From contig OY987232.1 in NCBI GenBank assembly GCA_963920705.1, forward strand, positions 14,881,726-14,945,725: 64,000 nucleotides of DNA, written 5' to 3'. Shown in pieces: positions 11,501 through 53,474 of this stretch. The notes beneath the pieces are model-generated. The model searched no databases, had not been told where the DNA came from, and saw only the letters and a list, made by a program, of their open reading frames with translations. A program made the translations under genes and the position numbers. Position 1 is the stretch's first letter. Every line of letters starts with the position of its first letter. Source of the DNA: Odiellus spinosus. Lineage: Eukaryota; Arthropoda; Arachnida; Opiliones; Phalangiidae.

Positions 11501-14500
11501 GTCTATTACTCCAGGGTCTTGTCTACCCCTCTGTGTATGGGTTATTCTCAAAAGGCGCGATTCGTTGGCCTCCTAACGGTAGATGTTTTCGGAGCGGGAG
11601 TTCGTCGAGCGAATATCTCTAGCAGCCTTGGAGTTCGTCCAAAAACGTCGTCGTTTGTGGAGAGAGAGAATTTCCAATTTTGCGTAGACAGGGGGATGAA
11701 GTAGGACCCCTTCTAACTCGTAAAATTGGGAATTTTAGCCATACAGAGAGGGAGCGCTATATGGGACATTGGAGTAGTAGACTTCAAAGGAGGGTTTCAT
11801 CGGCTTCTGCTCCAACGCATATCTTGCGGGCGTAAAATTCAGAATTGTACAACGAGACTAGTAAAACTAAAATACTATAACCTTTTTCAGACTTAAAATA
11901 TCAAAGGAGATATTACACAAAATATGTTAAATACAGCTTGAATATATTCGTATTTTCAATTCTGTAGTTCTCAGGTTGTCAGCTATCCACCTTGGGCGCT
12001 GTATGTAGGTTAGCTTTCTTTGAAGAGGGGGTCGCCAATATTAACAAGGAGTCGTGCAATTTATTTTTAATTTAATTGTGGAACGATCATTTCTGATGAC
12101 GGTGGTCCTTCAAAGAAACACAATAAAAATGGAGTTCACTTTTAAGGTTGAAACAAAATCTAGACGGTATTTTCGAAAGCACTGGTTTGCCTTTCACCAG
12201 TGAAAATTTAATCCATTTCCCCGCAATTATTAGATGAGAAAAAAATTCGCACAAATATAGTTTTAGTTTTGCAACAAGTTTTACAGGAAATTTTTTAAAA
12301 TATTAGTTTTTTTTACTATTTGTTTCAAAAAGAAAGATACAGTAGACAATATCATATATAATTGCAGAAAAACATGGACGTAAGGGACACGGCCACCTTT
12401 TTCGTAAGAATAGAAATGTCCACAGGCAACTCCAGGTGGCGCTCTCCTCTAGCTAGGCAGAAGATACAGGTTAATACACGGCCATTACGAAGGTTAAAAC
12501 ACGGCCATTACGAAGGTTAAAACACGGCCATTACGAAGGTTAAAACACGGCCATTACGAAGGTTAAAACACGGCCATTACGAAGGTTAAAACACGGCCAT
12601 TACGAAGGTTAAAACACGGCCATTACGAAGGTTAAAACACGGCCATTACGAAGGTTAAAACACGGCCATTACGAAGGTTAAAACACGGCCATTACGAAGG
12701 TTAAAACACGGCCATTACGAAGGTTAAAACACGGCCATTACGAAGGTTAAAACACGGCCATTACGAAGGTTAAAACACGGCCATTACGAAGGTTAAAACA
12801 CGGCCATTACGAAGGTTAAAACACGGCCATTACGAAGGTTAAAACACGGCCATTACGAAGGTTAAAACACGGCCATTACGAAGGTTAAAACACGGCCATT
12901 ACGAAGGTTAAAACACGGCCATTACGAAGGTTAAAACACGGCCATTACGAAGGTTAAAACACGGCCATTACGAAGGTTAAAACACGGCCATTACGAAGGT
13001 TAAAACACGGCCATTACGAAGGTTAAAACACGGCCATTACGAAGGTTAAAACACGGCTATTACGAAAGTTAATACACGGCCATTACGAAGGTTAAAACAC
13101 GGATATTATGAAGGTCACTACGCCGCCATTATAATATTAAATCGGGTTTAATTGGATTAAACGGAGATAAAAATATTGAATCGCGGATTAAACAGAGATG
13201 AAAAGATTACTTGGATATTATATTTTGGCCCGATCAAAACGTCAAACTCCATTTAAACATATAATTGAAAATGTAGAATATCAGAAGCCGATGAAACCCT
13301 CCTTTGAAGTCTATTACTCCCGGGTCTTGTCAACCCCTCTCTGTATGAGTTAGTTTCAAAAAGCGCGATTCGTACGTCTCCTAACGGTAGATATTTTCGG
13401 AGCGGGAGTTCGTCGAGCGAATATCTCTAGCAACCTAGGAGTTCGTTAAAAAAACATCGTCGTTTGTGGAGAGAGAGAATTTCCAATTTTCCGTAGACAG
13501 GGGGTATGAAGTAGGACCCCTCCGATCTCGTAAAATTGTGAATTTTACCCATACAGAGAGGAGCGCTATATGGAACATTAGAGTAGTAGACTTCAAAGGA
13601 GGGTTTCATCTACTTCTGAGAATATAAATTTAATCGCGATTGAAAGCTTCATTTAATCATGGACGAATTATAGTATACACAGGGACGAGTGGCAGACACA
13701 GATTTCCCTTATAGCGCCGCGTCCGAGTCTTGTTAAATGTCGTGCCCTGTTTTTACCCCCCCGACCAAATCTAGCCGAGTCTAAACGAAAAAAAAAGGAA
13801 ACAGAATTATGCGGCTAATGCCATCTTTCCGCCGTGAACTGAACTATTTTATTCAATGTAGTTTGAAATTTTCGTCTGCTTATCAGCTAGGATATATTTC
13901 TAAACGGTTATTTTAGTCTCTTTTGTTAAAATTTAACGAATTATTAGTTGGTTAGTCTTACGTTTTAGAGCTTAATTATGGGGATCAAGCCCTTAATACT
14001 GCTTCAAGGTAAGGTCGATTTTAAGTTTGTTAAAAGTTATTTTTTTTTTTTTTTATAAAAGCCAAAACTTACCATCATCTGAATCTCTTAATACACTTTT
14101 ACTTTTTTTCTTCTCTGGAGAATGTGTAAAATCTCCAAACAATGTCTCAAACGTTTGAGCACTAAAATTCATCGCCAATTCGCGATAAATCTAAACACGT
14201 GCGTAAAGGCCTAACTTTATAAATCTTGTGCTAGTATTTTTCCCCGCGTTCCTACCCCCTTTTGACTCGGTTTGTCGTTAGTTCCCAGAAATGCCGCTGG
14301 AGCGCGCATTTAACAATCGTTAGCCAGAAAATTACTTCTGCCACTCGTCCCTGTGTATACTATAATTCGTCCATGATTTAATACTTATGACCTTTCGCAT
14401 ACTCCAAAAAGATCGTTACATTGAATCAGAATTAGCCTTTTCCTATAAATCAATATTTAATTGGCACTTTATTCTTTCCATACGCTAGCGAGAGAAACTT

Positions 14501-17500
14501 CCAAATATAATTTCCAACAAGTTTCTTTAAGCTTATTAGAAACGCATGACCCAGTTTAGTCGCGATCATTTTAATCTCTATCCCTTTTATCTTTCCATTA
14601 AAACTGCTTTTAAACTTTTCAGATGACGCTCCTCTTATTACTGGAAGTCAAACTAAGTACCGAGTAGGAGATTTTGTTAATGTAAACTGCACTTCGGCCA
14701 ACCCTAATCCTAGGTTTCCACCGGAGCTCAATTGGTTCATTAACGATGTACAGGTAAGAATAATTCCCGACGTTAGAATCAAATTTCACGTTTAAATATA
14801 GAGAAAGAGGTTTTATAATAGATTAACGAAAAGCTCTTTTACTGTTCGTCGTTTTTAAAACTTTTCTATCGTTCTACGACGAGTTTAGGTTATTACAAAT
14901 CCATTTTTAAACAAATTTTGAGCTTTGCCAAATATTATTTACGCTATTTCAAAACCGATATTTAGGTTACCTCCATGTTCAGGAACACGCAACACATTCA
15001 AATTAATTTATTAGCGAATACAAGATGATTAAATTAATGGTTGAATAATTTTATATTAATATATAATTCGCGAATTTTTTATTTTATTCGAAATATATTC
15101 TTTAGCGATGATTATAGATTAGGAATAATTAAGTATGGTAGGTGACCCTAACTTGGTACACTTGTTGGAAAGAGGTATATTGGGAGGACTATAGGATTGA
15201 TAACTAAAAAAATTAGATTGACTCATCACGCAGACACTCAACGCGTTTTCAGTCCTCTACGACTAAAACGTTTTGCGCAGTCGCGGTCACAAACTACCTA
15301 GTAGCGTGCTCTAACTTGGTAATAGGGATTCTAACCTGGTAATGCCTTGTACCTAACTTTGAACACGCGTTGAAATATATGTAAAACCAGAAGACGACGA
15401 AACCCTCGTTTGAAGTCTATTACTCCCGGGTCTTGTCTACCCCTCTCTGTATGGGTTATTCTCAAAAGGCGCGATTCGTACGCCTCCTAACGGTAGATAT
15501 TTTCGGAGCGGGAGTTCGTCCAGCGAATATCTCTAGCAACCTTGGAGTTCGTCAACCAAACGTCGTCGTTTGTGGAGAGAATTTCCAATTTTCCGTAGAC
15601 AGGGGGTATGAAGTAGGACCCCTCCGATCTCGTAAAATTGGGAATTTTACCCATACAGAGAGGAGCGCTATATGGAACATTAGAGTAATAGACTTCAAAG
15701 GAGGGTTTCATTGGCTTCTGGTAAAACACATTTACGAGCCAGTATTTGATGATTTTAAAAATTAGGCATTGCTTTGCCGTTGAACCCATTTTGAAATCCT
15801 CATTTCAAAGGAAGTCGTCGATAACTTCGCAAATACCGGCTGGCGCGAAATATATCCAGCAATGTCCCAGTAAATTTGGCCAAGGAATCCATTGGTGACT
15901 CGTTCCTCGATTCGAGGTGTGGAAGTGGTTCTTTTCGCGAATTTTGTGAGTTTTCCATATATTATTTCGCGCTACGCCAAGTTAGAGCTCCCATATAGGT
16001 CATTTGAAATTTACCTTTCGCGATGAATTCTGGGCCAATTTCGGGTGATGAGACGCACATTTTGTAGCGGAGAACCCGGCCTTTCCGTATTAGTCTTTTA
16101 CTTAAACGTTGTTTTTTCTCAAGTCCGTAAAACCTTATTTCCCGTGGCCTAAAAGGAAATTTTCCCTAAAATTTCCTTATAATTGATTAGTCAAATTTAT
16201 GGGTTGGGCTAATTAGAGTCGTATCTTCTCCCAATATTTTCCTAGAGGGTCGAAGTTAGTTTTTCTCAATAGCCCGATATGGCGTCTACAAAACCAGCCA
16301 TAGAAAGCTTAATTTGAGCTAGTCAATCTGAAGTTATGAATTTTTAAAAGGTTTACCAAGTTAGGACTTTGCCAAGTTAGGGGCTAATATTTAGTTGAAG
16401 AGTTTTTGTAAGGAGTTGTTGGTATGGCTGCAGGAATTCTGGCCAAACGACACGAACGGCAACAGTACCGGCTGTATAATGGACTATCGCAATAACGCGC
16501 CATAATTATAAGTCTTAAAGTGCGCAATTGGCAAACAATTTGTTGTCCGTGCAATCTGGTGGAATTACAGTTTCTGAAAATAATCATTCGTTGTAATCTT
16601 TATGGTGGTAGTAAAGGGTTAATTAGTACTATGAAAAAACATGTGCCATCTCGTGTTTTTCACCAAATGAAGTTTACCTTCTATTTCTATCGAGATATTT
16701 GAAGAAACTCGCCCCAAAACGGTATTAGTTTGGCATCGATACAGTCCGCTATCACTTGCCGTTCCGTTCTTGATGATCAAGGTACCATTCTCTAGGATAG
16801 CGTAACGATTTCCATTTTGTAATTCGCGGAGCTGGTTACCACGATACCATTTCAAATGAACTCGAATCAACGGCGGGAAACCTTTGGCGCGACAATCCAG
16901 TTGAATAGGATAGCCTGACCATAAATTGGAAGTAGCCACTTTTACGTCAACCGATACTCCTTCTGAATACAGGATATTCCAAAAATGATTAAAACTAAGG
17001 TAACCCAGTTTCGAATGAATTTTGAGAAGGAGTTTTTACCGTATACGACGAGTCTGTAGGAACGCGAGACTGAGGAACCCCACTTTCCTACTGGCGCGAC
17101 GCAAGTATAGACTCCGGAGTCGTCGCCTCGGGCTTGACTGATGTACAAGGAGCCGTCCTGTTGGATAATTATTCTAGGATTGGAACTTTCCTCGATGCGG
17201 GGAGCTCTCGACCATTTAGGCGTTTCTGTGGCCCCACGTATTCGGCATCTAATCTTTACGTTTGAACCAGCTATCCTTAGTATTTCTTTTTCAACTGGTA
17301 TCACTGGACTTTCCGTAGTGGTTGTGGTCGTCGTAGTTGTTATAGTGACGATTTCTGGGCACAAAAGAAATGGCTTAGCACTTGAAGTCTGCGAATGTGT
17401 AAATTCTCAAACGGGAGAACGAAGTTTAAGAAAGATTATTCTTAGAGGTATTTAAATCCTAACCTGTCGTTGTGGTTGGCGTTCGTGGTTTTGGTTTCGA

Positions 17501-23500: not shown

Positions 23501-26500
23501 GACTACGTTGACCATAAGAAATTATTAGTACAATTTATGCTGTGTTTATAAGGGAAGTTGATTTTCTTATTGATGTGCAGATAAGATAAAATAGATAGAT
23601 AAAAGGTTAGGACCTGACATCCGCGCATTTCCTGGACCGAAAGGATACGCCTCCCCCGCAGGTTCTGGAACATTCACTGGCTTCCGAAAACGGACCCCAG
23701 TTTCCGGAATCGAGAGACGGGTCGTGAGGGCCCACTGCGAAGTTTTGAACGTAATCCTGACGTTTATGCCTTTCGTGGGGAACTTTCTGTAACGAATATT
23801 ACCGTAGTTAAGAAAAAATCAAGGTTCACGGTAGTCCCACACGCAAGGTTCGGGATAGCTATAGCTACCAGACCGAGATATATTCTTCCGAAGCAACTTG
23901 AGGCCAATTTCAACCCTTTGTAGGTCCCAAATAACAACAGATATCAAAAGATCACGTGTAATTTGAAAGGCCTCGTCAGTACGATAACAAGTAATTTCCT
24001 TTTAACACAGACCACTCTAGAGCAAAAAGTACTGAACTGATTTTGGTGAAAATTGGTACAGAGCTTGGAAAGTGTTGGCTCTTGCGGCATATAAAAGGAG
24101 AAGTTTTTATTCCAAATAGGTCAAAGGTTATTGACTAAACAGTGAGCCCAATACGCATCATACAGATAGACAGAGAGCGCACGTATAGAAGGATACAATA
24201 TAGAAAGATATTGGGAAAAACTCATCTTTCATGCTAATTATCCCTGTATAAACACGTACGAGGCAGCCAAATGGCGCCCCGTTGAAACTTCTATCCTAGT
24301 TCTAATTATTTTGTAGTTTACATTTAAAATACTCACGTCGTGATCCAAGGACGAGATTGGTGAAAGTTGATGGGCAATCCCTCCTCCCACCATTAAACAA
24401 ATTATGGCCAAGAAAGTCAACGAAGATCTATGACATGATGTAGAAATATATCACAAATCGGGTCCAAAATATAAATAAAACGAATAATAACGCGAATATG
24501 ATTTCACATCAAAGGGAATTGATTAGAGCTCCGAATCGGATAGCGCATATTTTCTGTTATTCGTATATTTTCAGATAATTTATTTTCGGATAAATTGTTT
24601 GTAAGTAAACAATGAAATTTGTTGTTCGTATAATTGTGAAATGTTTTACCCGAAGGAAAGCCTTTGGCGCTTTATCTACGAAAAAATTACTCGTATTCAA
24701 ACGGATAACGACGGATAAGAAAATTCGCGTTTCCAGAATTGGTCAAAAATATAAGAAAAATATTTCAAATTGACTTTTAATTTGAAGAATATAAATAAAA
24801 CGACGAAACTAAGATTTTAAATCATCTTTTTATTCATTATTTTTCACGAAAATAAATTTTGAATTTTTTTTAGCCGAACGTATAACGCGGATAATATTCT
24901 AAGATAAGGCCATTTTCGGATAAAAACGGATATGGATTAAACCAAAAATAAGAGTAATATTTCAACTTACTTAACAACAGCCTTTCCAGACAACATTTCC
25001 CCCCATTCATCCATCAATTCCTAAAATGCGTTCTAGTATTTTTTAAAATGATTTATTTGGAATTTTCAATCCGGCAGTTAGCGTAGAAAATTACTGAAAT
25101 TATCAAATTTTTCCGTGGAACTTTTATAAGAGTGAAATCGCGCTGTCGGCGCCTTCATGCCTCGCTAGTACACTGATACGATTAGATGAAAAATGCTGGG
25201 AAATTACGAAATCTTAATCTTGTTTACAAATACACTCTTTCTTGCCCCTCTAAGAGGCCATCCCTTAATCTTCAGTGTCCTTGTTGTAGAAGTACAAATA
25301 TTTTTTGATAGGAGTTAAATGATTTATTTTTAATCTGGCAAAGCTCTCAAAAGTTTCTAATTTCTCTTTACAGGCTTCAAAAAATTACATTGTCGCGTAT
25401 AGTCACGACCCATCCGAGGTTCCCGTAGTCGGTCTCCAATTTCAAGTACGACAAAAGCATTTCGACAAAGGAGGTGAACTAAGATTAAAATGTACCGCCA
25501 CTGTCTCGAAAATCATAAATACTAGAAGCGAAGAGAAGGTTCTTGGAAGTCACCAATGGACGTCAGGACTGCACGCTTCGGAAAGCTCCCAGAAAGGTAT
25601 AGTGACATTAAATTTAATGTTAATAACTCAAGAATCCATTCAGGTTCCATAAGAATATGGGAGCATAGCTTTAGCCTCTGGTACCATCCTCCCAAACTTT
25701 GTAACAAAAGTTCGTCCGCAATTTTCGCAACATTTGTACGCTTAGATCTTGTTTCGGTCGGCTCCATTTTTATTACCCAAAATATTATGTCTAGGTCGTT
25801 AGTGGCGCGGGTTAATAATAGATGTCAGGAGCGATTTACGTGAAAAATCGATTCGAAGCGGACGAATTTTTGCCACAAAGTTTGGGAGGATGGTTATAGA
25901 ATCGCGGCCCTCCCATATTCTTATGGAACCTGAATGAATTCTTGCATAACTAGTGTAATATTTTAAATTGAAACTGGCACCGATTTCTCAGTACGACGAT
26001 CTATTCAAATATATATATTTATAATTTATAAAATTATCAACTAGCAAAAATTCGTGAAAAGCATCACATGACATAAAAAATGTCAGAATTTTCCCGAACT
26101 TTCCGCAATAAATTTACAGAATTTTTATTTTAGAATTTTCCCGAACTTCCCAGACTTTTTTGTAAGCTTCTATAAAATTCTGAAGTCTAATGACTTAAGT
26201 TAATGTTTGATTACTTCAAACATCGAAAATAACAACACGAGGGGTCGGACATACACCATTAAAGCGTACGGGATTTTAGGGTTTTTCCCCAGTTTTAGTG
26301 ATTAAAAAAAAGAAATCTTAGGATTTAGAAAAATAGCTTTTAAAGATATATTGTAGATCTTGTGATTTATTTGCGGACTTGTGAATTTTTTCTTCGAATC
26401 TATGATTTATTTCAGGTAATCTGAATTTTTTTTTTTTTTTTAAATCTAAAGATTTTTAGATTTAAAATCTTTGTCGGATTTATCAAGCGGATTTATTAGC

Positions 26501-28093
26501 GTACGGGATTTATTCGTATGTCCGACCATTCGCAACAAGAAAAAAATTGTGGAGCTATCGAGCACACACGCATTATTTTAACCCACAATAAAACTTGAAC
26601 ACGAACTGTTTTAATTAAAAAGACTTGTGCCTATTATCAGAAACCAATGAAACCCTCCTTTGAAGTCTATTACTCCCGGGTCTTGTCTATCCCTCACTGT
26701 ATGGGTTAGTTTCAAAAAGCGCGATTTGTACGCCTCCTAACCGTAGATATTTTCGGAGCGGGAGTTCGTCGAGCGAATATCTGTAGCAGCCTTGGAGTTC
26801 GTCAAAAAAACGTCGTCGTTTGTGGCCAGAGAGAATTTCCAATTTTCTGTAGACAGGGGTATGAAGGAGGACCCCTCCGATCTCGTAAAGTTGGGAATTT
26901 TACCCATACAGAGAGGAGCGCTATATCGAACATTAGAGTAGTAGACTTCAAAGGAGGGTTTCATTGGCTTCTGATACTACGTATCAGAACACCCAACAAT
27001 CAATATTAGTTAAAGGAGCACCGCCATGAAATTTAAATGTCTTCATAACGTTCAAAAAAGCCTTGTTGAAAAATACCATTAAAATATCTTGGTTAATTAA
27101 GCTACAATTATTATTAAAATTTCAATTTCTCCCCCTTGATGATGCTCCTATCACAAAATTCGTGAAATACAAATTTTTCCAGTGTCCACCTAATACCAGC
27201 GCCATTTATACCACTCGTAACGTGAAAATTAGAGAAACGAGTGTCCTTTTTACGTGGAGTGATGTCGTATCACTCGACGTTATAAAAATACACCCAGAAG
27301 CCGATGAAACCCTCCTTTGAAGTGTACTTCTCTAATAATCCATATTACGCTCCTTTCTGTATGGGAAAAATTCCCAATTTTACGAGATCGGAGGGGTCCT
27401 ACTTCATACCCCTGTGTACTGGAAATTGGAAATTCTCTCTCTCCACAAACGACGACGTTTTTTCGACGAACTCCAAGGCTGCTAGAGATATTCGCTGGAC
27501 GAACTCCCGCTCCGAAAATATCTACCGTTAGGAGGCGTACGAATCGCGCTTTTGAAACGAACCCATACAGAGAGGGGTTGACAAGACCCGGGAGTAATAG
27601 ACTTCAAAGGAGGGTTTCATGGGCTGCGCGGTTCCTCCCCTTGTCGCTCCTAAAAAAAGGGCAGATTTTCGTGTTCCCTCTTCGCGTTGTAGAGCCTTCT
27701 TTCTCGACAGCTGGTATAGAGTCCCTGGCGCGATCTGGCGCGACCGAAAGAAGACTAACTTCTCAATTTACAAATTTTTTGTTTAATTTTTTTTAAGCCA
27801 TAACTCCACGTTTTCCCAGACTGTCTGGATACATCTTGTTTACCTCAAAAATTAATTTTTGATGATGGTGGTCCTTAAAAGCGAAGTTAAAAACACTAAT
27901 ATTAAAACAATATATATAATTTGAATATAAATATGATATTTTCAAAAGTGGTGAGAAATTGATGATAACTACATTTTTTTCCATAAATAAGATTAAATTA
28001 AAATGTTTTTGTATCTATTTTTCAGTAACAAACAAATGCAGCCGAATCACAAAATGGAAATTTTGGATTTTTTTGTTAGCGTTAATTTTTTAA
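5413..28093 (+). CDS. Beaten path (beat) family Ig cell-surface protein, 3' exons (partial gene)
   Basis: Spliced model: 5413-5548, 9406-9539, 10792-11050, 14623-14753, 25374-25596, 28026-28093, all with AG/GT borders and compatible phases (1, 0, 1, 0, 1). Beat proteins are two-Ig neuronal surface or secreted proteins that bind Sidestep-family receptors and guide motor axons (family knowledge). The first exon carries the diagnostic end of Ig1 ([16 protein letters not shown]). The next two exons make one Ig2 domain, and 14623-14753 plus 25374-25596 make a second Ig2-type domain. The last exon gives a short basic-hydrophobic C-terminus typical of a GPI or membrane tail. Signal peptide and Ig1 N-terminal exons are not visible and probably lie before base 1. 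The intron 14754-25373 holds papilin on the other strand. Alternatives are two adjacent beat genes, or mutually exclusive exon pairs. The family is secure; the transcript structure is inferred. Confidence 0.82.
5755..5958. repeat. Family N repeat, copy 1
   Basis: Shares GTCACGAAATCACGTGGTGT, TTATACAGGG, TTTCATAAAACG and GAGCGCTATGAGC-type stretches with 49005-49245. Confidence 0.7.
6028..6361 (+). repeat. Family A MITE, copy 5 (forward)
   Basis: About 334 bp; the 3' tip is lost (ends CATCGGCT). It lies in the first visible beat intron. Confidence 0.92.
6840..6985. repeat. Family G fragment
   Basis: Matches TATCAGTTCGCGGTTTTTAC through GAAATTTTATCATTTT, then joins a family K repeat. Confidence 0.75.
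6986..7640. repeat. Family K repeat, copy 1 (split by family A copy 6)
   Basis: Pieces 6986-7079 and 7425-7610 match the repeat at 16072-16380 (GCGGAGATCCCGGC, GGGCTAATTAGTGTCGTATC, AATAGCCCGATAT). Confidence 0.78.
7080..7417 (+). repeat. Family A MITE, copy 6 (forward)
   Basis: 338 bp, exact 7-bp duplication ATTATTC. Inserted into a family K repeat, which continues on both sides. Confidence 0.95.
7934..8030 (-). repeat. Diverged family A fragment (left part)
   Basis: Starts CAGAAGCTGATGAAACCC, then diverges. It keeps short matches to the reverse-orientation element (for example GATATTTTCGTAACGGGAGT). Probably an old copy. Confidence 0.6.
8245..8581 (-). repeat. Family A MITE, copy 7 (reverse)
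   Basis: 337 bp, exact 7-bp duplication TTATAAT. It lies between two diverged fragments of the same family. Confidence 0.95.
8600..8843 (-). repeat. Diverged family A fragment (right part)
   Basis: Matches the family in patches (CGTACGCCT, TTTTCCGTAGA, GAAGTAGG, TTTCAAAGGAGAG) and ends TCGACTTCTG. Older than the copies around it. Confidence 0.6.
8844..9405 (+). other. Beat intron sequence
   Basis: AT-rich; contains the family G fragment at 9088-9165 and ends in the pyrimidine tract before exon 9406. Confidence 0.6.
9088..9165. repeat. Family G fragment (reverse)
   Basis: Matches CGTTATAATATACATTTCTT through AATTATACCACGAA. Confidence 0.7.
9406..9539 (+). CDS. beat exon: first half of Ig2, copy 1
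   Basis: 134 nt, phase 1 to phase 0, acceptor ttttacAG and donor GAG|GTAAGG. It encodes the B strand (INVTC), an N-glycosylation sequon (NVT) and the core Trp (LKWTINSGE). It follows the Ig1 exon in frame (G|CT = Ala). Confidence 0.85.
9888..10205. repeat. Family H MITE, copy 1
   Basis: About 318 bp with tip TTAAAAAGGAGAATGCAGCC and an inner palindrome CCCAGAAAATAGGCTTAGC / GCTAAGCCTATTTT. Confidence 0.8.
10206..10791 (+). other. Beat intron sequence
   Basis: Moderate GC, no recognised repeat or exon. Short open frames here lack splice support. Confidence 0.5.
10792..11050 (+). CDS. beat exon: second half of Ig2, copy 1
   Basis: 259 nt, phase 0 to phase 1, acceptor catttAG and donor TCTG|GTAGGT. 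It encodes the second half of the domain with the paired Cys in LTINCTS. After GDKTPQ it runs into an alanine run (seven Ala) and a Ser-rich stalk, which makes it 36 nt longer than its paralogue at 25374. The phase-1 end can join either 14623 or 28026 in frame. Confidence 0.83.
11255..12120. repeat. Family L repeat, copy 1 (split by family A copy 8)
   Basis: Inverted tips TTTAAAGGACCACCGTCATG / GATGACGGTGGTCCTTCAAA, with family A copy 8 inserted near the middle. Confidence 0.7.
11474..11809 (-). repeat. Family A MITE, copy 8 (reverse)
   Basis: 336 bp; flanks GTCCAAC / CTCCAAC agree at 6 of 7 bases. Inserted in a family L repeat in the beat intron. Confidence 0.94.
12470..13115. repeat. 23-bp minisatellite, about 28 copies
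   Basis: Unit ACACGGCCATTACGAAGGTTAAA, nearly perfect; only the last units vary (GGCTATTACGAAAGTTAAT, GGATATTATGAAGG). It lies in the beat intron 11051-14622. Confidence 0.97.
13282..13618 (-). repeat. Family A MITE, copy 9 (reverse)
   Basis: 337 bp, exact 7-bp duplication AGAATAT. Confidence 0.95.
13658..14375. repeat. Family C element, copy 1
   Basis: 718 bp with about 38-bp near-perfect inverted ends starting CATGGACGAATTATAG. Exact 7-bp duplication ATTTAAT. Carries a candidate exon on the - strand. It lies in the beat intron 11051-14622. Confidence 0.94.
14073..14172 (-). pseudogene. Candidate coding exon inside family C element, copy 1
   Basis: ATG at 14170-14172 opens 33 codons ([15 protein letters not shown], then a Lys/Ser-rich part ending RDSDDG) to a consensus donor G|GTAAGT. 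The 100 bases are identical in the other family C copy 39 kb away. It may be the first exon of the parent transposon's gene left after internal deletion. No known family is recognised. Confidence 0.4.
14623..14753 (+). CDS. beat exon: first half of Ig2, copy 2
   Basis: 131 nt, phase 1 to phase 0, the same phases as 9406-9539. The acceptor is aacttttcAG and the donor CAG|GTAAGA. It encodes [18 protein letters not shown] and the core Trp (LNWFINDVQ), which resembles a standard Beat Ig2 more closely than copy 1 does. Confidence 0.82.
14754..15387 (+). other. Start of the large beat intron
   Basis: AT-rich. 15140-15370 has three copies of CTAACTTGGTA-like words, related to the end of family K. 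Confidence 0.5.
15388..15720 (-). repeat. Family A MITE, copy 10 (reverse)
   Basis: 333 bp, exact 7-bp duplication GTAAAAC. Confidence 0.95.
16072..16380. repeat. Family K repeat, copy 2, next to the papilin stop codon
   Basis: Matches 6986-7610. It reaches to within a few bases of the papilin TAG at 16384-16386, so the papilin 3' UTR must be largely repeat-derived. Confidence 0.78.
16384..16573 (-). CDS. Ppn: Papilin last exon: PLAC domain with apparent frameshift
   Basis: Read at the phase delivered by exon 22 it gives [19 protein letters not shown] and then an in-frame TAA (16516-16518). The rest of a typical PLAC domain ([18 protein letters not shown]), with all its Cys, continues in another frame to TAG at 16384-16386. 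An extra 8 nt (TAAGACTT, a partial repeat of the bases next to it) around 16511-16518 would explain the break, as would a 1-nt loss. It could be an assembly error, a polymorphism, or a real truncation that removes four of six PLAC cysteines. Confidence 0.8.
16384..24427 (-). CDS. Ppn: Papilin, extracellular matrix protein (nested in beat intron)
   Basis: Twenty-three exons read with consistent phases from 24427 to the stop at 16384-16386, about 1,455 residues. Papilin is a secreted, ADAMTS-like basement-membrane glycoprotein (lacunin in moths). Domain order with rough residues: signal peptide 1-20, TSP1 50-110, ADAMTS Cys-rich and spacer 110-310, TSP1 340-397, Cys-rich papilin cassettes 397-693, Kunitz 1-4 693-959, Kunitz 5 with antistasin-like Cys-rich region 959-1124, WAP 1124-1178, Thr-rich linker, Ig 1210-1300, Ig 1300-1395, PLAC to the end. 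The order matches insect papilin, but with only two TSP1 repeats it is about half the fly length. The initiator ATG is probably in an unseen upstream exon. The PLAC exon does not read through. Several introns carry family G fragments. Confidence 0.93.
16601..16664. repeat. Family G tip fragment in the last papilin intron
   Basis: GGTAGTAAAGGGTTAATTAG through CATGTGCCATCTCGTG. It fills more than half of the 104-bp intron 16574-16677. Confidence 0.75.
16678..16962 (-). CDS. Ppn: Papilin exon 22: second Ig domain
   Basis: 285 nt, phase 1 to 1. I-set Ig with [15 protein letters not shown] and SDSGLYRC, plus NGT and NIS sequons. The donor AAG|GTAAAC lies 10 bp from a family G fragment in the next intron. 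Confidence 0.9.
17040..17354 (-). CDS. Ppn: Papilin exon 21: Thr run and first Ig domain
   Basis: 315 nt, phase 1 to 1. It starts with a run of eight Thr, a likely O-glycosylated linker. The Ig domain has VKIRCRI, core Trp (PKWSRAP) and DDSGVYTC. Confidence 0.9.
17464..17514 (-). CDS. Ppn: Papilin exon 20: short Pro/Thr linker
   Basis: 51 nt, phase 1 to 1, acceptor ccattttcAG and donor ACAG|GTTAGG. It encodes [17 protein letters not shown]. It is symmetrical, so it could be skipped without a frameshift. Confidence 0.7.
17580..17741 (-). CDS. Ppn: Papilin exon 19: WAP (four-disulfide core) domain
   Basis: 162 nt, phase 1 to 1. Eight Cys in WAP order: [24 protein letters not shown] and RNC. 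WAP domains are small protease-inhibitor-like folds and occur before the Ig domains in insect papilins. Confidence 0.9.
17804..17894 (-). CDS. Ppn: Papilin exon 18: short Cys-rich exon
   Basis: 91 nt, phase 0 to 1, acceptor tcgaaacAG and donor CTAA|GTACCA. It encodes [14 protein letters not shown] and LPECRL, which continues the antistasin-like region. It was found by phase; without it exon 17 (phase 0) could not join the WAP exon (phase 1). Confidence 0.78.
17995..18170. repeat. Short family G element in a papilin intron
   Basis: About 175 bp, from AAGGCGGTAGTAAAGG to GACTACCGTCTTA: both inverted tips with most of the middle deleted. It lies in intron 17895-18204. Confidence 0.8.
18205..18608 (-). 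CDS. Ppn: Papilin exon 17: Kunitz domain 5 plus antistasin-like Cys-rich region
   Basis: 404 nt, phase 1 to 0. The Kunitz part has [14 protein letters not shown] and [13 protein letters not shown] with P1 Thr. It is followed by a second Cys-rich stretch ([16 protein letters not shown] and [13 protein letters not shown]) with the Cys spacing of antistasin-like domains. Confidence 0.87.
18758..19006 (-). CDS. Ppn: Papilin exon 16: Kunitz domain 4 and acidic linker
   Basis: 249 nt, phase 1 to 1, acceptor ttcaatAG 55 bp after the previous donor. Six Cys with [14 protein letters not shown] and [14 protein letters not shown]1 is Ala. A Pro/Glu-rich linker ([15 protein letters not shown]) follows. 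Confidence 0.88.
19062..19259 (-). CDS. Ppn: Papilin exon 15: Kunitz domain 3
   Basis: 198 nt, phase 1 to 1, donor GAAA|GTGAGT. Six Cys with [12 protein letters not shown] and [14 protein letters not shown]1 is Ser. A short acidic/Pro tail follows the domain. Confidence 0.9.
19317..19493 (-). CDS. Ppn: Papilin exon 14: Kunitz domain 2
   Basis: 177 nt, phase 1 to 1. Six Cys with [13 protein letters not shown] and [14 protein letters not shown]1 is Glu, not expected to inhibit trypsin-type enzymes. Confidence 0.9.
19560..19733 (-). CDS. Ppn: Papilin exon 13: Kunitz domain 1
   Basis: 174 nt, phase 1 to 1, one Kunitz domain per exon. Six Cys with [13 protein letters not shown] and [13 protein letters not shown]. 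The P1 position after the second Cys is Lys, so this domain could inhibit trypsin-like proteases. Confidence 0.9.
19799..20130 (-). CDS. Ppn: Papilin exon 12: Cys-rich papilin cassettes, third block
   Basis: 332 nt, phase 2 to 1, acceptor attatttAG and donor GGAG|GTTGTT. It encodes four units with [24 protein letters not shown] and PFGCCPDG cores, followed by SHPKPG, which leads into the first Kunitz domain. Confidence 0.88.
20481..20705 (-). CDS. Ppn: Papilin exon 11: Cys-rich papilin cassettes, second block
   Basis: 225 nt, phase 2 to 2, acceptor tctcttaAG and donor CCCGG|GTACAC. It encodes three units with [16 protein letters not shown] and RYGCCVDN cores spaced 24-25 residues apart. Confidence 0.87.
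20829..21158 (-). CDS. Ppn: Papilin exon 10: Cys-rich papilin cassettes, first block
   Basis: 330 nt, phase 2 to 2. It contains repeated units of the type GPxxxxC(D)Cxxxx(F/Y)GCCPDxxxxAxG. The first unit is degenerate: FGPNMEGC lacks the GCCPD core, as if about one half-unit was deleted. The acceptor at 21159-21160 is pyrimidine-poor and its exact position is the least certain junction in the gene. Confidence 0.82.
21219..21722 (-). CDS. Ppn: Papilin exons 8-9: end of spacer and second TSP1 repeat
   Basis: Exon 21587-21722 (136 nt, phase 0 to 1) encodes [17 protein letters not shown] and then [16 protein letters not shown]. Exon 21219-21345 (127 nt, phase 1 to 2) completes the repeat with RREKTC and [10 protein letters not shown]. 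This is the second and apparently last TSP1 unit; fly papilin has several more here. Confidence 0.87.
21782..22576 (-). CDS. Ppn: Papilin exons 4-7: ADAMTS-type Cys-rich and spacer module
   Basis: Exons 22474-22576, 22268-22398, 22085-22208 and 21782-22026, separated by introns of 75, 59 and 58 bp. Family landmarks in order: [98 protein letters not shown] and EPLFIV. This is the part shared by ADAMTS proteases and ADAMTS-like proteins; no protease domain is present. Confidence 0.93.
22864..23786 (-). CDS. Ppn: Papilin exons 2-3: first thrombospondin type-1 repeat
   Basis: Exon 23614-23786 (173 nt, phase 0 to 2) and the 61-nt exon 22864-22924 (phase 2 to 0). Together they encode [25 protein letters not shown], then [18 protein letters not shown]. 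The Cys pattern is intact, but the usual second Trp of WxxWxxC is replaced, which removes one possible C-mannosylation site. The small exon was found by phase and by the need to complete the TSP1 cysteines. The intron holds a family G element. Confidence 0.88.
23152..23426. repeat. Compact family G element in a papilin intron
   Basis: About 275 bp with inverted ends TAAGGCGGTAGT / ACTACCGCCTTA, in intron 22925-23613. Confidence 0.85.
24337..24427 (-). CDS. Ppn: Papilin exon 1 (visible): signal peptide
   Basis: 91 nt ending at the strong donor GAC|GTGAGT. It encodes [20 protein letters not shown], a clear signal-peptide core. No in-frame ATG precedes it before a stop. An acceptor (gtcatAG at 24428-24433) suggests that the start Met and one or two more codons lie in an upstream exon, not located. 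An internal ATG in the core is an unlikely start. Confidence 0.75.
24526..24939. repeat. Family F MITE, copy 2 (truncated)
   Basis: Starts GAGCTCCGAATCGGAT and follows copy 1 to GGATATGGATTA, where it stops. It lies just upstream of the visible papilin 5' end. Confidence 0.85.
24940..25373. other. Region between papilin 5' end and beat exon
   Basis: Should hold the papilin promoter and first exon if they are close. No ATG-plus-donor exon could be chosen with confidence. Confidence 0.4.
25374..25596 (+). CDS. beat exon: second half of Ig2, copy 2
   Basis: 223 nt, phase 0 to phase 1, acceptor tctttacAG and donor AAAG|GTATAG. It encodes [13 protein letters not shown] and the paired Cys in LRLKCTA. 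The exon ends 32 bp before a family D MITE, and the 10.6-kb intron before it contains the whole visible papilin gene. Confidence 0.82.
25629..25944. repeat. Family D MITE, copy 1
   Basis: 316 bp with inverted ends CAAGAATCCATTCAGGTTCC. Flanks AATAACT / CATAACT agree at 6 of 7 bases. It starts 32 bp after a beat splice donor. Confidence 0.92.
26243..26527. repeat. Family M MITE
   Basis: 285 bp with inverted ends GGTCGGACATAC / GTATGTCCGACC and inner copies of GCGTACGGGATTT. Single copy here. Confidence 0.7.
26638..26973 (-). repeat. Family A MITE, copy 11 (reverse)
   Basis: 336 bp, both ends present; flanks CTATTAT and ATACTAC do not match. Confidence 0.93.
27012..27884. repeat. Family L repeat, copy 2 (split by family A copy 12)
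   Basis: Tips TTAAAGGAGCACCGCCATGA / GATGATGGTGGTCCTTAAAA; it too holds a family A copy in its middle. About 150 bp of extra sequence follows the family A copy. Confidence 0.68.
27295..27625 (+). repeat. Family A MITE, copy 12 (forward)
   Basis: About 331 bp; the 3' tip is replaced after TTTCATGGGCT. It lies in the beat intron before the last exon. Confidence 0.92.
28026..28093 (+). CDS. beat terminal exon: hydrophobic C-terminus and stop
   Basis: It follows a strong pyrimidine-rich acceptor (gtatctatttttcAG). Read at phase 1 it encodes [20 protein letters not shown] then IF and TAA at 28091-28093: a basic patch followed by about ten hydrophobic residues. Such short hydrophobic C-termini fit the membrane or GPI tail of Beat proteins. 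Both upstream Ig2 copies end in phase 1, so both can splice to it. Confidence 0.68.
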
Positions 28094-29528: not shown

Positions 29529-29602
29529 AGCGTCAGTAGCTGAAGTGGTAGAGCGTTGGCTTTGTAAGCGCCGTGACTTGGGTTCGAATCCCAAGACGGT
29601 CT
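29529..29602 (+). pseudogene. tRNA-like unit, most tRNA-like of the cluster
   Basis: TAGCTGAAGTGGTAGAGCG is a good A box/D arm, then GGCTTTGTAAGC, then T arm TTGGG-TTCGAAT-CCCAA. The acceptor halves (AGCGTCAG and GACGGTCT) do not pair. Confidence 0.55.
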
Positions 29603-44773: not shown

Positions 44774-45110
44774 CAGAAGCCGATGAAACCCTCCTTTGAA
44801 GTCTATTACTCCCTGGTCTTGTCTAACTCTCTCTGTATGGCTTAGTTTCACAAAGCGCGATTCGTACGCCTCCTAACGGTAGATATTTTCGTAGCGGGAG
44901 TTCGTCCAGCGAATATCTCTAGCAGCCTTGGAGTACGTCAAAAAAACGTCGTCGTTTGCGGAGAGAGAGAATTTCCATTTTTCCCTAGACAGGGGCTATG
45001 AAGTAGGACCCCTCCGATCTCGTAAAATTGGGAATTTCTCCCATACAGAGAGGAGCGCTATATCGAACATTAGAGTAGTAGACTTCAAAGGAAGGTTTCA
45101 TCTACTTCTG
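44774..45110 (-). repeat. Family A MITE, copy 13 (reverse)
   Basis: 337 bp, both ends present (right end CATCTACTTCTG); flanks do not match. Confidence 0.93.
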
Positions 45111-46550: not shown

Positions 46551-46874
46551 CAGAAGCCGATGAAACCCTCCTTTGAAGTCTACTACACCAATGTTCCATA
46601 TAGCGCTCCTCTCTGTATGGGTAAAATTCCCAATTTTACGAGTTAGAAGGGGTCCTACTTCATCCCCCCCTGTCTACGGAAAATTGGAAATTCTCTCTCT
46701 CTCCACAAACGACGACGTTTTTTGGACGAACTCCAAGGCTGCTAGAGATATTCGCTCGAAAACATCTACCGTTAGGGGCCGTACGAATCGCGCCTTTTGA
46801 GAATAACCCATACAGAGAGAGGTAGACAAGACCCGGGAGTAATAGACTTCAAAGGAGGGTTTCATCGGCTTCTG
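46551..46874 (+). repeat. Family A MITE, copy 14 (forward)
   Basis: 324 bp with a small internal deletion, exact 7-bp duplication ATAAAAT. Confidence 0.95.
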
Positions 46875-46925
46875 ATAAAATGTTTTTAAAACCAAGATCA
46901 ATACAAACAAGCTTGTAGACATCCT

Positions 46926-47356: not shown

Positions 47357-47673
47357 CAAGAATCCATTCAGGTTCCATAAGAATATGGGAGCATAACTTT
47401 ACCCTCTGGTACCATCCTCCCAAACTTTGTAACAAAAGTTCGTCCGCAATTTTCGCAACATTTGTACGCTTAGATCTCTTTTCGGTCGGCTCCATTTTTA
47501 TTACCCAAAATATTATGTCAAGGTCGTTAGTGGCGCGGGTTAATAATATAATTTCAGGAGCGATTTACTTGAAAAATAGATTCGAAGCGGACGAACTTTT
47601 GCTACAAAGTTTGGGAGGATGGTTATTGAATCGCGGCTCTCCCATATTCTTATGGAACCTGAATGGATTCTTG
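47357..47673. repeat. Family D MITE, copy 2
   Basis: 317 bp, exact 7-bp duplication GTGTAAT. Confidence 0.94.
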
Positions 47674-48147
47674 GTGTAATGATATATAAAGTTGTCTAAA
47701 ATAGGAATTACAACCTTTTTGCTAAGAGGAATTTGCTTCCATGCCTGTCCAATATTATCCTTTTATACTCTACACTCACTCTCCCGCAGCAATGGGAACC
47801 ATCTTAGTAATCGCATTACGACGACGAGATCCATGACGCCCTTTAACCTTAAAATGTTTCGTCTTAAAGGGTCATTGACGTGGAAACACGCCCTTCTCAG
47901 GACCAAGAAATATGCGCCTCTACTCTTATTTTTGTCTTATTCTCAACAATATTAGTATAGCACCCGGCTCTCTTTTGTGCCAACGATAACGAATTTAAAA
48001 TCCCCTTTTCTTTCTAAAAATAGAGTGTTGGTCTACGTGAAATGATTCAAGATTTCTCGTCGACTCGTGGAGGGAAAGTAGCACTCAAGTCAGGAACAGG
48101 TTAAGATCAGAAAAGAATTAAAGGGAAACTAAGAGCTTTTGAATACA

Positions 48148-48960
48148 GGGTTGCCACAGATTTTTCATAACAAAATTCCCTGACCATCTACACCGTTTTA
48201 CCCTGACCAGAGGTATATAATAACCCCCTTCGAGGGGAAGTATGAAAGCCCCTATACTACCAATGCTAAAAATCACGAACAACAAGAGCCCGCTGCTGAC
48301 TATTTAGGCCACTAGCTCGCGCTGGACTTCTCAATGTCGCTACTCTAGTAAATGGTCTTTGTATAAACAAGACGGCTCGATTTGTGTTTAGAACTTCCTG
48401 TCTCGGGAGTCAGGCTGTCTGTTAAAATGGAGTCGAAGGTTGACTTCAGCTCGCGAGTTCCGGAAGTGCGCGTAGGGAAAATTTAGTGAGGTTCAAAATG
48501 GTGTAACTATTTTTTGGGAATGAAGCGGTGTGTCGATCCGCCGCGATTTACGACGGGCACTTGTTGTTCGTCGATTTTGCCTTCCTCTGCCCTGACCAAT
48601 TAGTAGAACTCCAAGGTTGCTAGAGATTGGCGTGGTAGCTCTTCCTTGTGTGAATCACCTCTCCCCAAAAATAGGTCTTCTGTTTAGACAGTATACTGTG
48701 AGAAAGTATTCATAAAAAACCTGCTTTTATCAATAGGGACTTTCCATAAATGTTATAAAGCCACTGATCCCATATAATACATTCTTACACATATTTAAGG
48801 AAGCTTCCCTGGTCTAACTGAATCCATACTATGAGATTCCACAATTTTGTATTTGGAAAATATGAAAATTCCCTTACTTTTCCTTGACCTTCGGACCATT
48901 TTAAAATTCTCTGACTTTTCCAGGTTTTCCAGGTTTGTGACAACCCTGGAATAGACAAAT
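48148..48960. repeat. GGGTTGCCACA ... TGTGACAACCCTG repeat split by family B copy 1
   Basis: Both tips and CCTGAC-rich inner sequence are present; the family B insertion duplicated CCCTGAC from within it. Confidence 0.65.
48208..48589. repeat. Family B MITE, copy 1
   Basis: Starts CAGAGGTATATAATAACC and ends CCTCTG, with exact 7-bp duplication CCCTGAC. It lacks most of the right inverted repeat, yet the target duplication still fits the shortened end. Inserted into a Pro/Ser-like CCTGAC repeat. Confidence 0.9.
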
Positions 48961-49004
48961 TCGAAATACTTGACATAATATAAAAGAAATTGTGAGCGCG
49001 ACAT

Positions 49005-49245: not shown

Positions 49246-49262
49246 CATATTACAAGTTTTGG

Positions 49263-49600
49263 CAGAAGCCGATGAAACCCTCGTTTGAAGTCTACTACTC
49301 TAATGTTCCATATAGCGCTCCTCTCTGTATGGGTAAAATTCCCAATTTTACGAGATCGGAGGGGTCCTCCTTCATACCCCCCTGTCTACGGAAAATTGGA
49401 AATCTCTCTCTCCACATACGACGACGTTTGGTTGACGAACTCCAAGGTTGCTAGAGATATTGGCTGGACGAACTTCCGCTCCGAAAATATCTACCGTTAG
49501 GAGGCGTACGAATCGCGATTTTTGACACTAACCCATACAGAGAGGGGGTAGACAAGACCCGGGAGTAATAGACTTCAAAGGTGGGTTTCATCGGCTTCTG
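49263..49600 (+). repeat. Family A MITE, copy 15 (forward)
   Basis: 338 bp, exact 7-bp duplication GTTTTGG. Confidence 0.95.
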
Positions 49601-50084: not shown

Positions 50085-50423
50085 CAGAAGCCGATGAAAC
50101 CCTCCTTTGAAGTCTACTACTCTAATGTTCCATATAGCGCTCCTCTCTGTATGGGTAAAATTCCCAATTTTACGAGATCGGAGGGGTCCTACTTCATACC
50201 CCCCCTGTCTACGGAAAATTGTAAATTCTCTCTCTCCACAAACGACGACGTTTTTTTGACGTACTCCAAGGCAGCTAGAGATATTCGCTCGACGAACTCC
50301 GGTTCCGAAAATATCTACCGTTAGGAGGCGTACGAATCGCGCTTTTTGAAACTAACCCATACAGAGAGGGGTAGACAAGACCAGGGAGTAATAGACTTCA
50401 AAGGAGGGTTTCATCGGCTTCTG
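50085..50423 (+). repeat. Family A MITE, copy 16 (forward)
   Basis: 339 bp, exact 7-bp duplication ATTTTAG. Confidence 0.95.
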
Positions 50424-50803: not shown

Positions 50804-51221
50804 CAGAGGTATATAATAACCCCCTTCGGGGGAAGTATGAAAGCCCCTATACTACCAATGCTAAAAATCACGAACAACAAGAGCCCGCTGCTGACTATCT
50901 AGGCCACTAGCTCGCGCTGGACTTCTCAATGTCGCTACTCTAGTAAATGGTCTTTGTATAAACAAGACGGCTCGATTTGTGTTTAGAACTTCCTGTCTCA
51001 GGAGTCAAGCGGTCTGTTAAAATGGAGTCGAAGGTTGACTTCAGCTCGCGAGTTCCGGAAGTGTGCGTAGGGAAAATTTAGTGAGGTTCAAAATGGTGTA
51101 ACTATTTTTTTGGAAGTAAAGCGGTGTGTCGATCCGCCGCGATTTACGCCGGGCACTTGTTGTTCGTCGATTTTGCCTACCTTTCATACTTCCCCCCGAA
51201 GGGGGTTATTATATACCTCTG
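50804..51221. repeat. Family B MITE, copy 2
   Basis: 418 bp with about 40-bp inverted ends that contain the palindrome CCCCCTTCGGGGG. Exact 7-bp duplication TTTATAC. Confidence 0.93.
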
Positions 51222-51358
51222 TTTATACCAAGATCTCTAGGTTATCACCTAGATGTCGACAGGGGTTTTACGATTTTATTTTAGTACCCCGTGGGATGGG
51301 CGCTTGCCTCTGATTGGCTTGTTAGCAATGGCAGAAAGCTGAAAGCTCCGAATTAATT

Positions 51359-51676
51359 GACGAATTCGAAATTTCCATACTTATAAACCAACTGATCCAG
51401 GGGCTACGGTCATTGGGGCACAAATATAATGATGAATTATCGCAATAGATGGCGCGTCTGTACCTATCGACGTATTACACCCGTTGCCATGGGAAACGCG
51501 TCGAGTCTCGAAGTAGCGCGAGGGGAGGGGTTACCGCCTAGTTTGTCTCTCTCGTCATAGCTTAGCAAAACGGAATAGGATCAGAATGGGAACTACGCCA
51601 GCGACATCTCTTAACAGATCGATGCGTAAAGAGTGTACCCAATGTCCATGCAAGTTCTTCAATTTCGAATTGGTCT
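51359..51676. repeat. Family J repeat, copy 1
   Basis: About 318 bp from GACGAATTCGAAATTTCC to CAATTTCGAATTGGTC; contains ATCAGAATGGGAACTACG and CGACATCTCTTAACAGATC. Confidence 0.8.
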
Positions 51677-51927
51677 ATTTAACGTCGTCTTTCATAATTA
51701 AAACCTATTAATATGAGATAAAACTAAATTTTATTCTCGGATTTTTCTGTTTCATTTGCATTTCAGATCTACAAATGATTAAAAATTTCTCATTTATTTA
51801 AAAGGGGGCTTCAAAATTTTCGTTACTACTGTCTTTCTCTTAAGCTGAATGATTAAAGAGAAACTATCTATAAAGGCGGTGACCAATTGGTAACTCACCA
51901 AAAAGGGTCATTTACAGTACCTATTAT

Positions 51928-52345
51928 CAGAGGTTTATAATAACCCCCTTCGGGGGAAAGTATGAAAGGTAGGCAAAATCGACGAACAACAAGTGCCCGG
52001 CGTAAATCGCGGCGGATCGACACACCGCTTTACTCCCAAAAAATACTTACACCATTTTGTACCTCATTAAATTTTCCCTACGCACACTTCCGGAACTCGC
52101 GAGCTGAAGTCAACCTTCGACTCCATTTTAACAGACAGCCTGACTCCTGAGACAGGAAGTTCTAAACACAAATCGAGCCGTCTTGTTTATACAAAGACCA
52201 TTTACTAGAGTAGCGACATTGAGAAGTCCATCGCGAGCTAGTGGCCTAGATAGTCAGCAGCGGGCTCTTGTTGTTCGTGATTTTTAGCATTGGTAGTATA
52301 GGGGCTTTCATACTTCCCCCCGAAGGGGTTTATTATATACCTCTG
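51928..52345. repeat. Family B MITE, copy 3
   Basis: 418 bp, opposite orientation to copy 2. Exact 7-bp duplication CTATTAT. Inserted into a family G element whose sequence resumes right after it. Confidence 0.93.
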
Positions 52346-52766
52346 CTATTATCAAGCTAACCACAAATGCTAACAGTTCGCGATTTTCACTTAAATTTGA
52401 ACTGAAATCTTCTTTAGTTCATGATGTAATTTTGATAATTATAACGCTAGAGATTAGCCAATCGCGTTTAAAAATAACTTATCGAAATTTTATCATTTCC
52501 GTACCTATTATCTCACGTTCTAATATCAACTTTACTTCCGACGAACCGTAGAAGTCTGACGTTATTCGTGGTATAATTTGACAATTTTAACTTTAATTTT
52601 TATCTATTTACGATAAGAAATGTATATTATAACGGTGTTTTACTCGTAAATACGAAGATGTCGCCACAATAGTCTATTATCCGAGACCCGTCATCGTCTG
52701 GCCTACAGGGTGCCCACCCACCGCGGGAGGCTGGATATTAAGAAAAGAGGTAAGAGAGAGTTCGGA

Positions 52767-53474
52767 CATGGACGAATTATAGTATACACAGGGACGAGTG
52801 GCAGACACAGATTTCCCTTATAGCGCCGCGTCCGAGTCTTGTTAAATGTCGTGCCCTGTTTTTACCCCCCCGACCAAATCTAGCCGAGTCTAAACGAAAA
52901 AAAAGGAAACAGAATTATGCGGCTAATGCCATCTTTCCGCCGTGAACTGAACTATTTTATTCAATGTAGTTTGAAATTTTCGTCTGCTTATCAGCTAGGA
53001 TATATTTCTAAACGGTTATTTTAGTCTCTTTTGTTAAAATTTAACTCTTGGTTAGTCTTACGTTTTAGAGCTTAATTATGAGGATCAAGCCCTTAAATAC
53101 TGCTTCAAGGTAAGGTCGATTTTAAGTTTGTTAAAAGTTATTTTTTTTTTTTTTAAAAAGCCGAAACTTACCATCATCTGAATCTCTTAATACACTTTTA
53201 CTTTTTTTCTTCTCTGGAGAATGTGTAAAATCTCCAAACAATGTCTCAAACGTTTGAGCACTAAAATTCATCGCCAATTCGCGATAAATCTAAACACGTG
53301 CGTAAAGGCCTAACTTTATAAATCTTGTGCTAGTATTTTTCCCCGCGTTCCTACCCCCTTTTGACTCGGTTTGCCGTTAGTTCCCAGAAATGCCGCTGGA
53401 GCGCGCATTTAACAATCGTTAGCCAGAAAATTACTTCTGCCACTCGTCCCTGTGTATACTATAATTCGTCCATG
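52767..53474. repeat. Family C element, copy 2
   Basis: 708 bp, very close to copy 1. Exact 7-bp duplication GTTCGGA. Inserted into the same family G element that also received family B copy 3. Confidence 0.94.
53172..53271 (-). pseudogene. Candidate coding exon inside family C element, copy 2
   Basis: Identical 100-nt copy of the exon at 14073-14172, with the same ATG and GTAAGT donor. No downstream exon exists within the 708-bp element, so no complete protein can be made from it. Confidence 0.4.

Follow-up and report, generated by a model that had tools for sequence, protein, structure and literature searches.

A question raised by the window, the whole stretch of 64,000 bases analysed here (C8:14881726-14945725 of the 443-Mb, 286-contig genome of Odiellus spinosus), is whether several families of short inverted-repeat elements with CA...TG ends and flanking 7-bp repeats are mobilised by a single transposase superfamily with a 7-bp staggered cut, as was proposed in an earlier note on this DNA. 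The families in the window are A (CAGAAGCC), B (CAGAGGTA), C (CATGGACG) and D (CAAGAATC); a fifth, E (CAAGAAGGATCAG, 291-297 bp), was recovered by an unbiased scan that took in adjoining sequence. A to D are miniature inverted-repeat transposable elements (MITEs), short non-autonomous DNA transposons, and these families are real, with a 7-bp target-site duplication (TSD) that is nearly strict. A, B and D have a common palindromic target motif and C does not. Mobilisation of all families by one transposase superfamily is unproved and is weakened for C.

Elements and duplications in the window

The window contains 28 near-full copies (21 A, 3 B, 2 C, 2 D), which cover 10,319 of its 64,000 bases (16%). 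The members of families A to E are 291-718 bp in size, have terminal inverted repeats (TIRs) of about 33 to about 90 bp and occur in many dispersed copies. Short length, TIRs, TSDs, dispersal and lack of coding sequence are all features of MITEs; the coding scan with Pfam was made for C alone, where nothing in six frames exceeded the cut-off (DUF3908 fell below it, E 0.055), and coding remnants in C were rejected on this result. The four families were described earlier as sharing no internal sequence, and the best between-family blastn match reaches only E=0.86. The exact A and B end patterns have no match in viral_contigs, and the exact A pattern has none in genome_contigs.

An exact 7-bp duplication flanks 17 of the 28 copies, and 21 have a duplication with at most one mismatch. 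Shifting the comparison of the flanks by 1 to 12 bases in both directions (24 offsets) yielded no exact match and one match with one mismatch; at equal spacing, any one pair of 7-mers would agree exactly by chance with a probability of 0.0013. Chance as the source of the duplications is rejected by this displaced-offset control. The ends and duplications quoted in the earlier note are all present (CCCTGAC, TTTATAC and CTATTAT for B, ATTTAAT and GTTCGGA for C, GTGTAAT for D), and the 7-bp rule also holds for A, for which none had been listed: 11 of its 21 near-full copies are exact and 14 have at most one mismatch. The copies are listed below; for A, the plus sign denotes the orientation of copy 44774.

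13658..14375, +, C MITE, 718 bp; 39-bp perfect TIRs (CATGGACGAATTATAG...), TSD ATTTAAT
52767..53474, +, C MITE, 708 bp; 39-bp perfect TIRs, TSD GTTCGGA
48208..48589, +, B MITE, 382 bp; CAGAGGTA ends, TSD CCCTGAC; nested in CAGGGTTG element 48146-48948
50804..51221, +, B MITE, 418 bp; TIRs about 41 bp, TSD TTTATAC
51928..52345, -, B MITE, 418 bp; TSD CTATTAT
25629..25944, +, D MITE, 316 bp; TSD AATAACT/CATAACT, 1 mismatch
47357..47673, +, D MITE, 317 bp; imperfect TIRs about 90 bp, TSD GTGTAAT
62686..62757, +, D left-end fragment
2160..2464, -, A MITE; TSD ATTTGTT
7080..7417, -, A MITE; TSD ATTATTC
8245..8581, +, A MITE; TSD TTATAAT
11474..11809, +, A MITE; TSD GTCCAAC/CTCCAAC
13282..13618, +, A MITE; TSD AGAATAT
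15388..15720, +, A MITE; TSD GTAAAAC
46551..46874, -, A MITE; TSD ATAAAAT
49263..49600, -, A MITE; TSD GTTTTGG
50085..50423, -, A MITE; TSD ATTTTAG
54178..54514, -, A MITE; TSD CTACCAC/CTAACAC
56664..56999, +, A MITE; TSD CTGTTAT
57917..58254, -, A MITE; TSD ATTTTAG/AATTTAG
61263..61600, -, A MITE; TSD TCAATTG
61893..62230, -, A MITE; TSD ATTATAA
3263..3599, -, A copy without TSD; flanks TTACAAC / CTTAAAG
4077..4414, +, A copy without TSD; flanks GTTAAAG / TTATACC
4925..5271, -, A copy without TSD
6028..6365, -, A copy without TSD, degraded right end
26638..26973, +, A copy without TSD
27295..27629, -, A copy without TSD, degraded right end
44774..45110, +, A copy without TSD; flanks CCAATAG / CGTATAC
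58870..59016, -, A copy interrupted by N gap
8715..8843, +, A fragment, identity about 70-75%
7934..7967, strand not assigned, A end fragment

The inverted A copies 3263-3599 and 4077-4414 differ at 2 of 7 positions in their outer flanks (TTACAAC/TTATACC) and at 1 of 7 in their inner flanks (CTTAAAG/GTTAAAG), a pattern that resembles exchange or composite movement. The element at 48146-48948, in which a B copy is nested, has the ends CAGGGTTGCCACAG / CAGGGTTGTCACAA and a 5-bp duplication, GAATA, and possibly belongs to another transposon group.

Replication beyond the window

Genome-wide, first-look candidates number 1429 for A, 731 for D and 115 for C. Samples were chosen by similarity, as the best-matching copies of each family; of the 40 places per family that were scored in full, they comprise 28 for A (one of them, L001, is window copy 44774), 10 for C and 10 for D. 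The 7-bp length of the duplication, on which the earlier proposal depended, held in these samples: it is exact in 19 of 28 A copies (21 with at most one mismatch), 9 of 10 C copies and 7 of 10 D copies. The 200 kb adjoining the window (L029-L048; 264 kb together with it) contain 23 near-full A copies, 10 exact and 15 with at most one mismatch, two near-full B copies (one exact, one with one mismatch), three D copies (two exact) and three E copies (two exact, one with one mismatch).

The unbiased scan covered these 264 kb after masking of tandem repeats; it collected inverted-repeat pairs whose terminal 12 bases matched at 10 or more positions and which were flanked by a perfect duplication 5 to 11 bases long. 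Restricted to CA...TG ends, it gave 25 pairs at 7 bp, all of them A-E, versus 2, 1 and 1 at 5, 6 and 8 bp. Without regard to the end sequence, the numbers were 54, 47, 31, 5 and 1 at 5, 6, 7, 8 and 10 bp, respectively; 25 of the 47 pairs at 6 bp have one common start, CCAATTTT, which is internal to A. The following copies represent family E:

L030:6758-7048, E copy
L041:128-424, E copy
L048:8048-8340, E copy

The last of these interrupts a copy of A. The A sequence without the insertion, containing GTCCAGC once, is found six times in the 264 kb (three times in the window) and thus provides a clean empty site for this insertion. Copies within a family are similar, with identities among the best 40 scored (query excluded) of 93-97% for C and 97-98% for D, so the insertions are probably fairly recent.

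Target-site motif

Motif counts were confined to insertions in which the two TSD copies differ at no more than one position. The joined flanks of 21 window insertions form the palindrome Tnn[nTnnnAn]nnA, in which the brackets enclose the duplication, with T-3 in 18, T2 in 17, A6 in 15 and A+3 in 13 sites. The same motif is present at 21 other A sites (symmetrised 36, 33, 33 and 36 of 42). The mean number of matches at the four positions is 2.93 for A in the 264 kb (29 sites), 3.29 for A elsewhere (21 sites) and 2.79 for B-E pooled (14 sites), versus 1.39 at AT-matched random places. In pooled form, 154/200 positions match for A, 18/20 for B, 29/44 for D, 7/12 for E and 18/44 for C. Genome-wide, the counts at T-3, T2, A6 and A+3 are 4, 6, 5 and 5 for D (n=7) and 2, 4, 5 and 2 for C (n=9). 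Family C differs from A (Fisher p 6e-6) and is not distinct from background (p 0.25), and E, with few sites, falls short of significance against background (p 0.08), all p values being rough since positions within a site are not independent. Because the C sites are without the motif of A, B and D, one transposase for all families is unlikely. The published outer positions of P and 1360 targets, A(-3) and T(+3), are found at 6/64 and 13/64 sites, 50 of the 64 being A sites.

Search for the transposase

The genome was searched for hAT, P and THAP domains and selected loci were read. The hAT dimerisation domain PF05699 has at least 150 matches (150 scored of 220 candidates), and multi-copy hATs with long open frames are present. 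Reading of six hAT loci with long frames showed clear ends at four (CAGTGCCGGAT, CAGTAGCGCCG, CAGTGGCGCCG, CAGTGGCGGAT) and undefined ends at two. All four clear-ended hATs have an 8-bp TSD, and their ends (CAGTGGCG/CAGTGCCG/CAGTAGCG) are unlike those of A-E. At one undefined locus, L070, a D end lies at 404 beside the frame and is followed, by eye, by D interior; a second D end was not found in the 4.6 kb of the locus. At the other, L073, an E copy with both ends, about 290 bp apart, occupies 563-852 beside the frame. Given this spacing and the missing second D end, both are read as MITE insertions rather than as parental ends. Five equal-score hAT-domain matches at C1 about 5.127-5.233 Mb, spaced about 25-29 kb, perhaps represent a tandem segmental repeat.

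P-type domains are likewise numerous: at least 71 genome matches of RNaseH_C (150 scored of 152 candidates), at least 150 of RNaseH_N (150 of 386) and at least 144 of the GTP-binding domain (150 of 164), with at least 150 of THAP (150 of 638). Stop-free P-type frames of 801, 672 and 856 amino acids are repeated at equal score, which suggests that the P superfamily has been recently active or expanded. Six P-type loci (L075-L080) have no credible TIR or TSD, and the best matches to A-E ends there, taken as chance, have 5 mismatches over 20-21 bases. An end candidate at L076 (CAGA..., TSD GTATTAT, 2389-5363) was rejected: such pairs also occur in 3 of 120 random windows, and its right 'end' falls, by our own reading, in THAP-coding sequence. 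An inverted 1.9-kb pair at L043:5028-6954 and 8053-9978 is 99.8% identical, each member overlapping an open DDE_Tnp_4 frame; it was dismissed as a parent after no CA...TG ends with duplication were found there.

The 32-base C end, with at most 2 mismatches, has 97 + 97 genome matches versus 0 + 0 for the reversed control. Among the listed C-end pairs the spacing is, by our own reading, nearly always about 0.7-0.8 kb, and for some ends the list contains no partner. Among the matches listed, three intervals are long:

C1:18865294-18868381, C-ended element, 3,088 bp; exact 7-bp duplication GATAGAA
C1:2184135-2188585, C-ended element, 4,451 bp
C11:13732625-13743175, C-ended interval, 10,551 bp

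The 3,088-bp element is a candidate parent of C. Among the matches listed (150 scored for each domain), none of PF05699, PF21789, PF21787, PF21788 or THAP lies in the three intervals, which is at most suggestive.

Comparison with known transposons

CA...TG ends are typical of both P and hAT elements, and those of A-E are shared with the hATs of this genome (CAGTGGCG...), which are unlike A-E in their 8-bp TSD and, in the four clear-ended cases, in their end sequences. In Drosophila, 1360 (Hoppel) of the P superfamily has the target GTTNAAC and a modal TSD of 7 bp, the P element the target GTCCGGAC of 8 bp and hobo the target GTNCGNAC of 8 bp (PMC3276498). Galileo, also of the P superfamily, has the 7-bp TSD GTATTAC, or GTANTAC across six species, with flanks AANGT...ACNTT, and P and 1360 tend to ANAGT...ACTNT (PMC4168063). 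The target of Tol2, a hAT element, is TNA(C/G)TTATAA(G/C)TNA (PMC2753552), a preference described as weak (PMC2753552, PMC4825651), and that of Hermes is nTnnnnAn (PMC10368747). Dada makes duplications of 6-7 bp, has no TIRs and targets small-RNA genes (PMC3706591). The authors of Repbase give, as an example of a query, hAT families annotated '7-bp TSD' (PMC4455052). MITEs related to P elements are described from Anopheles gambiae (PMC1562414); these resemble the present families as MITE families in an arthropod, a likeness by description only. No description of 7-bp hAT MITE families was recognised among the papers listed by a literature search on them.

The shared 7-bp stagger was presented in the earlier note as a candidate for an undescribed system. 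This part of the proposal is not supported, the same length being on record for 1360, Galileo, Dada and annotated hATs, and A-E fit known kinds of transposon. With 1360 and Galileo they have in common the 7-bp TSD and an AT-rich palindromic target with T2 and A6, and with Galileo also long inverted repeats; A, B and D are unlike both at the outer positions A(-3)/T(+3), in a comparison made by TSD and target, and no P transposase is linked to A-E. A 7- or 8-bp TSD is a feature of the P superfamily, and that of A-E lies within it; the P/1360 outer motif is not followed. The 8-bp TSD of hATs is absent from A-E. The Tol2-type motif, T(-3), T2, A(n-1) and A(+3), is found at all four positions in A, B and D but not in C, and E has too few sites; hobo, Hermes, 1360, Galileo and P agree with A, B and D at T2 and A(n-1). 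Dada resembles A-E in its 6-7 bp TSD and differs in having no TIRs and in its small-RNA gene targets, whereas A-E have TIRs and dispersed targets; the window has no Rfam match at gathering score, and its only tRNA-Tyr (29529-29601) does not lie beside A-D.

Mode of mobilisation

Families A-E have defined ends, exact 7-bp duplications in some copies of each family, an empty site for one E insertion and many dispersed copies. These MITEs are probably mobilised in trans with a 7-bp stagger and at least two target specificities. Elements without evident coding capacity would be excised at their CA...TG ends by DDE transposases encoded elsewhere in the genome, in a cut-and-paste reaction; the target strands would be attacked 7 bp apart, and gap repair would produce the 7-bp duplication. 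A, B and D would favour Tnn[nTnnnAn]nnA and C would have no such preference, and these two specificities make more than one transposase likely. Several observations weigh against this explanation. A recognisable duplication is missing from 7 of the 28 window copies, all A (3263, 4077, 4925, 6028, 26638, 27295 and 44774), from 7 of the 28 genome-wide A copies, from 3 of the 10 genome-wide D copies (3 to 5 mismatches) and, in the adjoining 200 kb, from 8 of 23 A copies (two of them with two mismatches) and 1 of 3 D copies; 1 of the 10 genome-wide C copies has a 6-bp duplication, the 4,451-bp C-ended element has no matching flanks, and the domain searches and the loci read tie no transposase to any of A-E. 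The proposal of one superfamily with a 7-bp cut stands as far as unrelated families with CA...TG ends and a common stagger, and the motif of A, B and D, are concerned; a single superfamily is not supported, given the 18/44 of C and the lack of a parental transposase.

The source of A, B and D is most probably a transposase of hAT or P type that cuts with a stagger of 7 bp. A hAT lineage that cuts at 7 rather than 8 bp, moving these families and perhaps E, is a tentative choice that falls somewhat short of an even chance. The fit to Tol2 at 4/4 motif positions, the hobo (GTNCGNAC) and Hermes (nTnnnnAn) targets, the Repbase example and the abundance of hATs in the genome speak for it; the 8-bp TSDs and different ends of the 4/4 clear-ended hATs, the D end in L070 and E copy in L073 that look like MITE insertions and, among the matches listed, the lack of PF05699 in the long C-ended intervals speak against. 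For A, B and D alone a P-superfamily source is possible, at a somewhat lower probability, and it is doubtful that P-superfamily transposases of the 1360/Galileo kind move all the families. The modal 7-bp TSD of 1360, known also from Galileo (PMC3276498, PMC4168063), the fit of T2 and A6 to GTTNAAC and GTANTAC and the numerous P-type domains, with several long open frames repeated at equal score, are consistent with that wider view; opposed to it are the scarcity of A(-3) and T(+3) here, the six P loci without credible TIR or TSD and without an A-E end at fewer than 5 mismatches, and the absence of a P-domain match from the three long C-ended intervals among the matches listed (at most 150 scored). 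Some other source for A, B and D is unlikely.

A transposase determines its own stagger length. With 7 bp in A-E and 8 bp in the hATs of this genome, cross-mobilisation by the ordinary 8-bp hATs is therefore disfavoured; long-frame hATs do occur in multiple copies, but 4/4 clear-ended ones have 8-bp TSDs and different ends, and this source was rejected as very improbable. Rather improbable, too, is another DDE superfamily (Mutator-like, Dada-like or undescribed) as the mobiliser: the 3,088-bp C-ended element has no hAT, P or THAP match among those listed and Dada duplications measure 6-7 bp (PMC3706591), but that element may hold no transposase and Dada has no TIRs and targets small-RNA genes. 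Chance or an assembly artefact has a negligible probability, given the displaced offsets without an exact match, the dispersal of copies with differing duplications over many contigs and the reversed C-end control of 0 + 0. It is conceivable, but quite unlikely, that the families converged on their ends and stagger within this one genome: A, B and D would be moved by a hAT lineage that shifted from 8 to 7 bp and kept its target geometry (or by an undescribed DDE group intermediate between hAT and P), and a second, unrelated 7-bp transposase would move C.

Non-autonomous DNA transposons are classified largely by the length of their TSD and by their first bases. The five families of this genome are alike in TSD length and in their CA...TG ends and are separated by target-site statistics. 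If parental elements confirm the split, TSD length and CA...TG ends would be insufficient to assign a superfamily, and motifs beyond the duplication would be a cheap extra test. The genome offers 7-bp and 8-bp elements side by side for comparing stagger length. Otherwise the findings represent ordinary MITE biology at high density.

Other features

A 138-bp CAGGGGCGTCGG inverted-repeat element at L029:7027-7164 has an 8-bp duplication, TACCTAGC, and is hAT-MITE-like. The gene content of the window looks animal. The minus strand at 16619-21214 contains exons of a multi-domain extracellular protein, which we take to be papilin-like, with Kunitz and immunoglobulin (Ig) exons at 16.6-19.8 kb; Pfam identified Ig or Kunitz domains in 6 of the 9 open reading frames tested, and the other three are cysteine-rich repeats without a Pfam match. 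Ig-like exons, presumably of the beat family of arthropod axon guidance proteins, were recognised by eye on the plus strand at 9381-9656, 14550-14795 (without a Pfam match) and 25323-25652. A tandem array with a 32-33-bp unit and higher-order structure occupies 31.2-41.6 kb, and arrays of 10-, 15-, 19- and 23-bp units are present elsewhere in the window.

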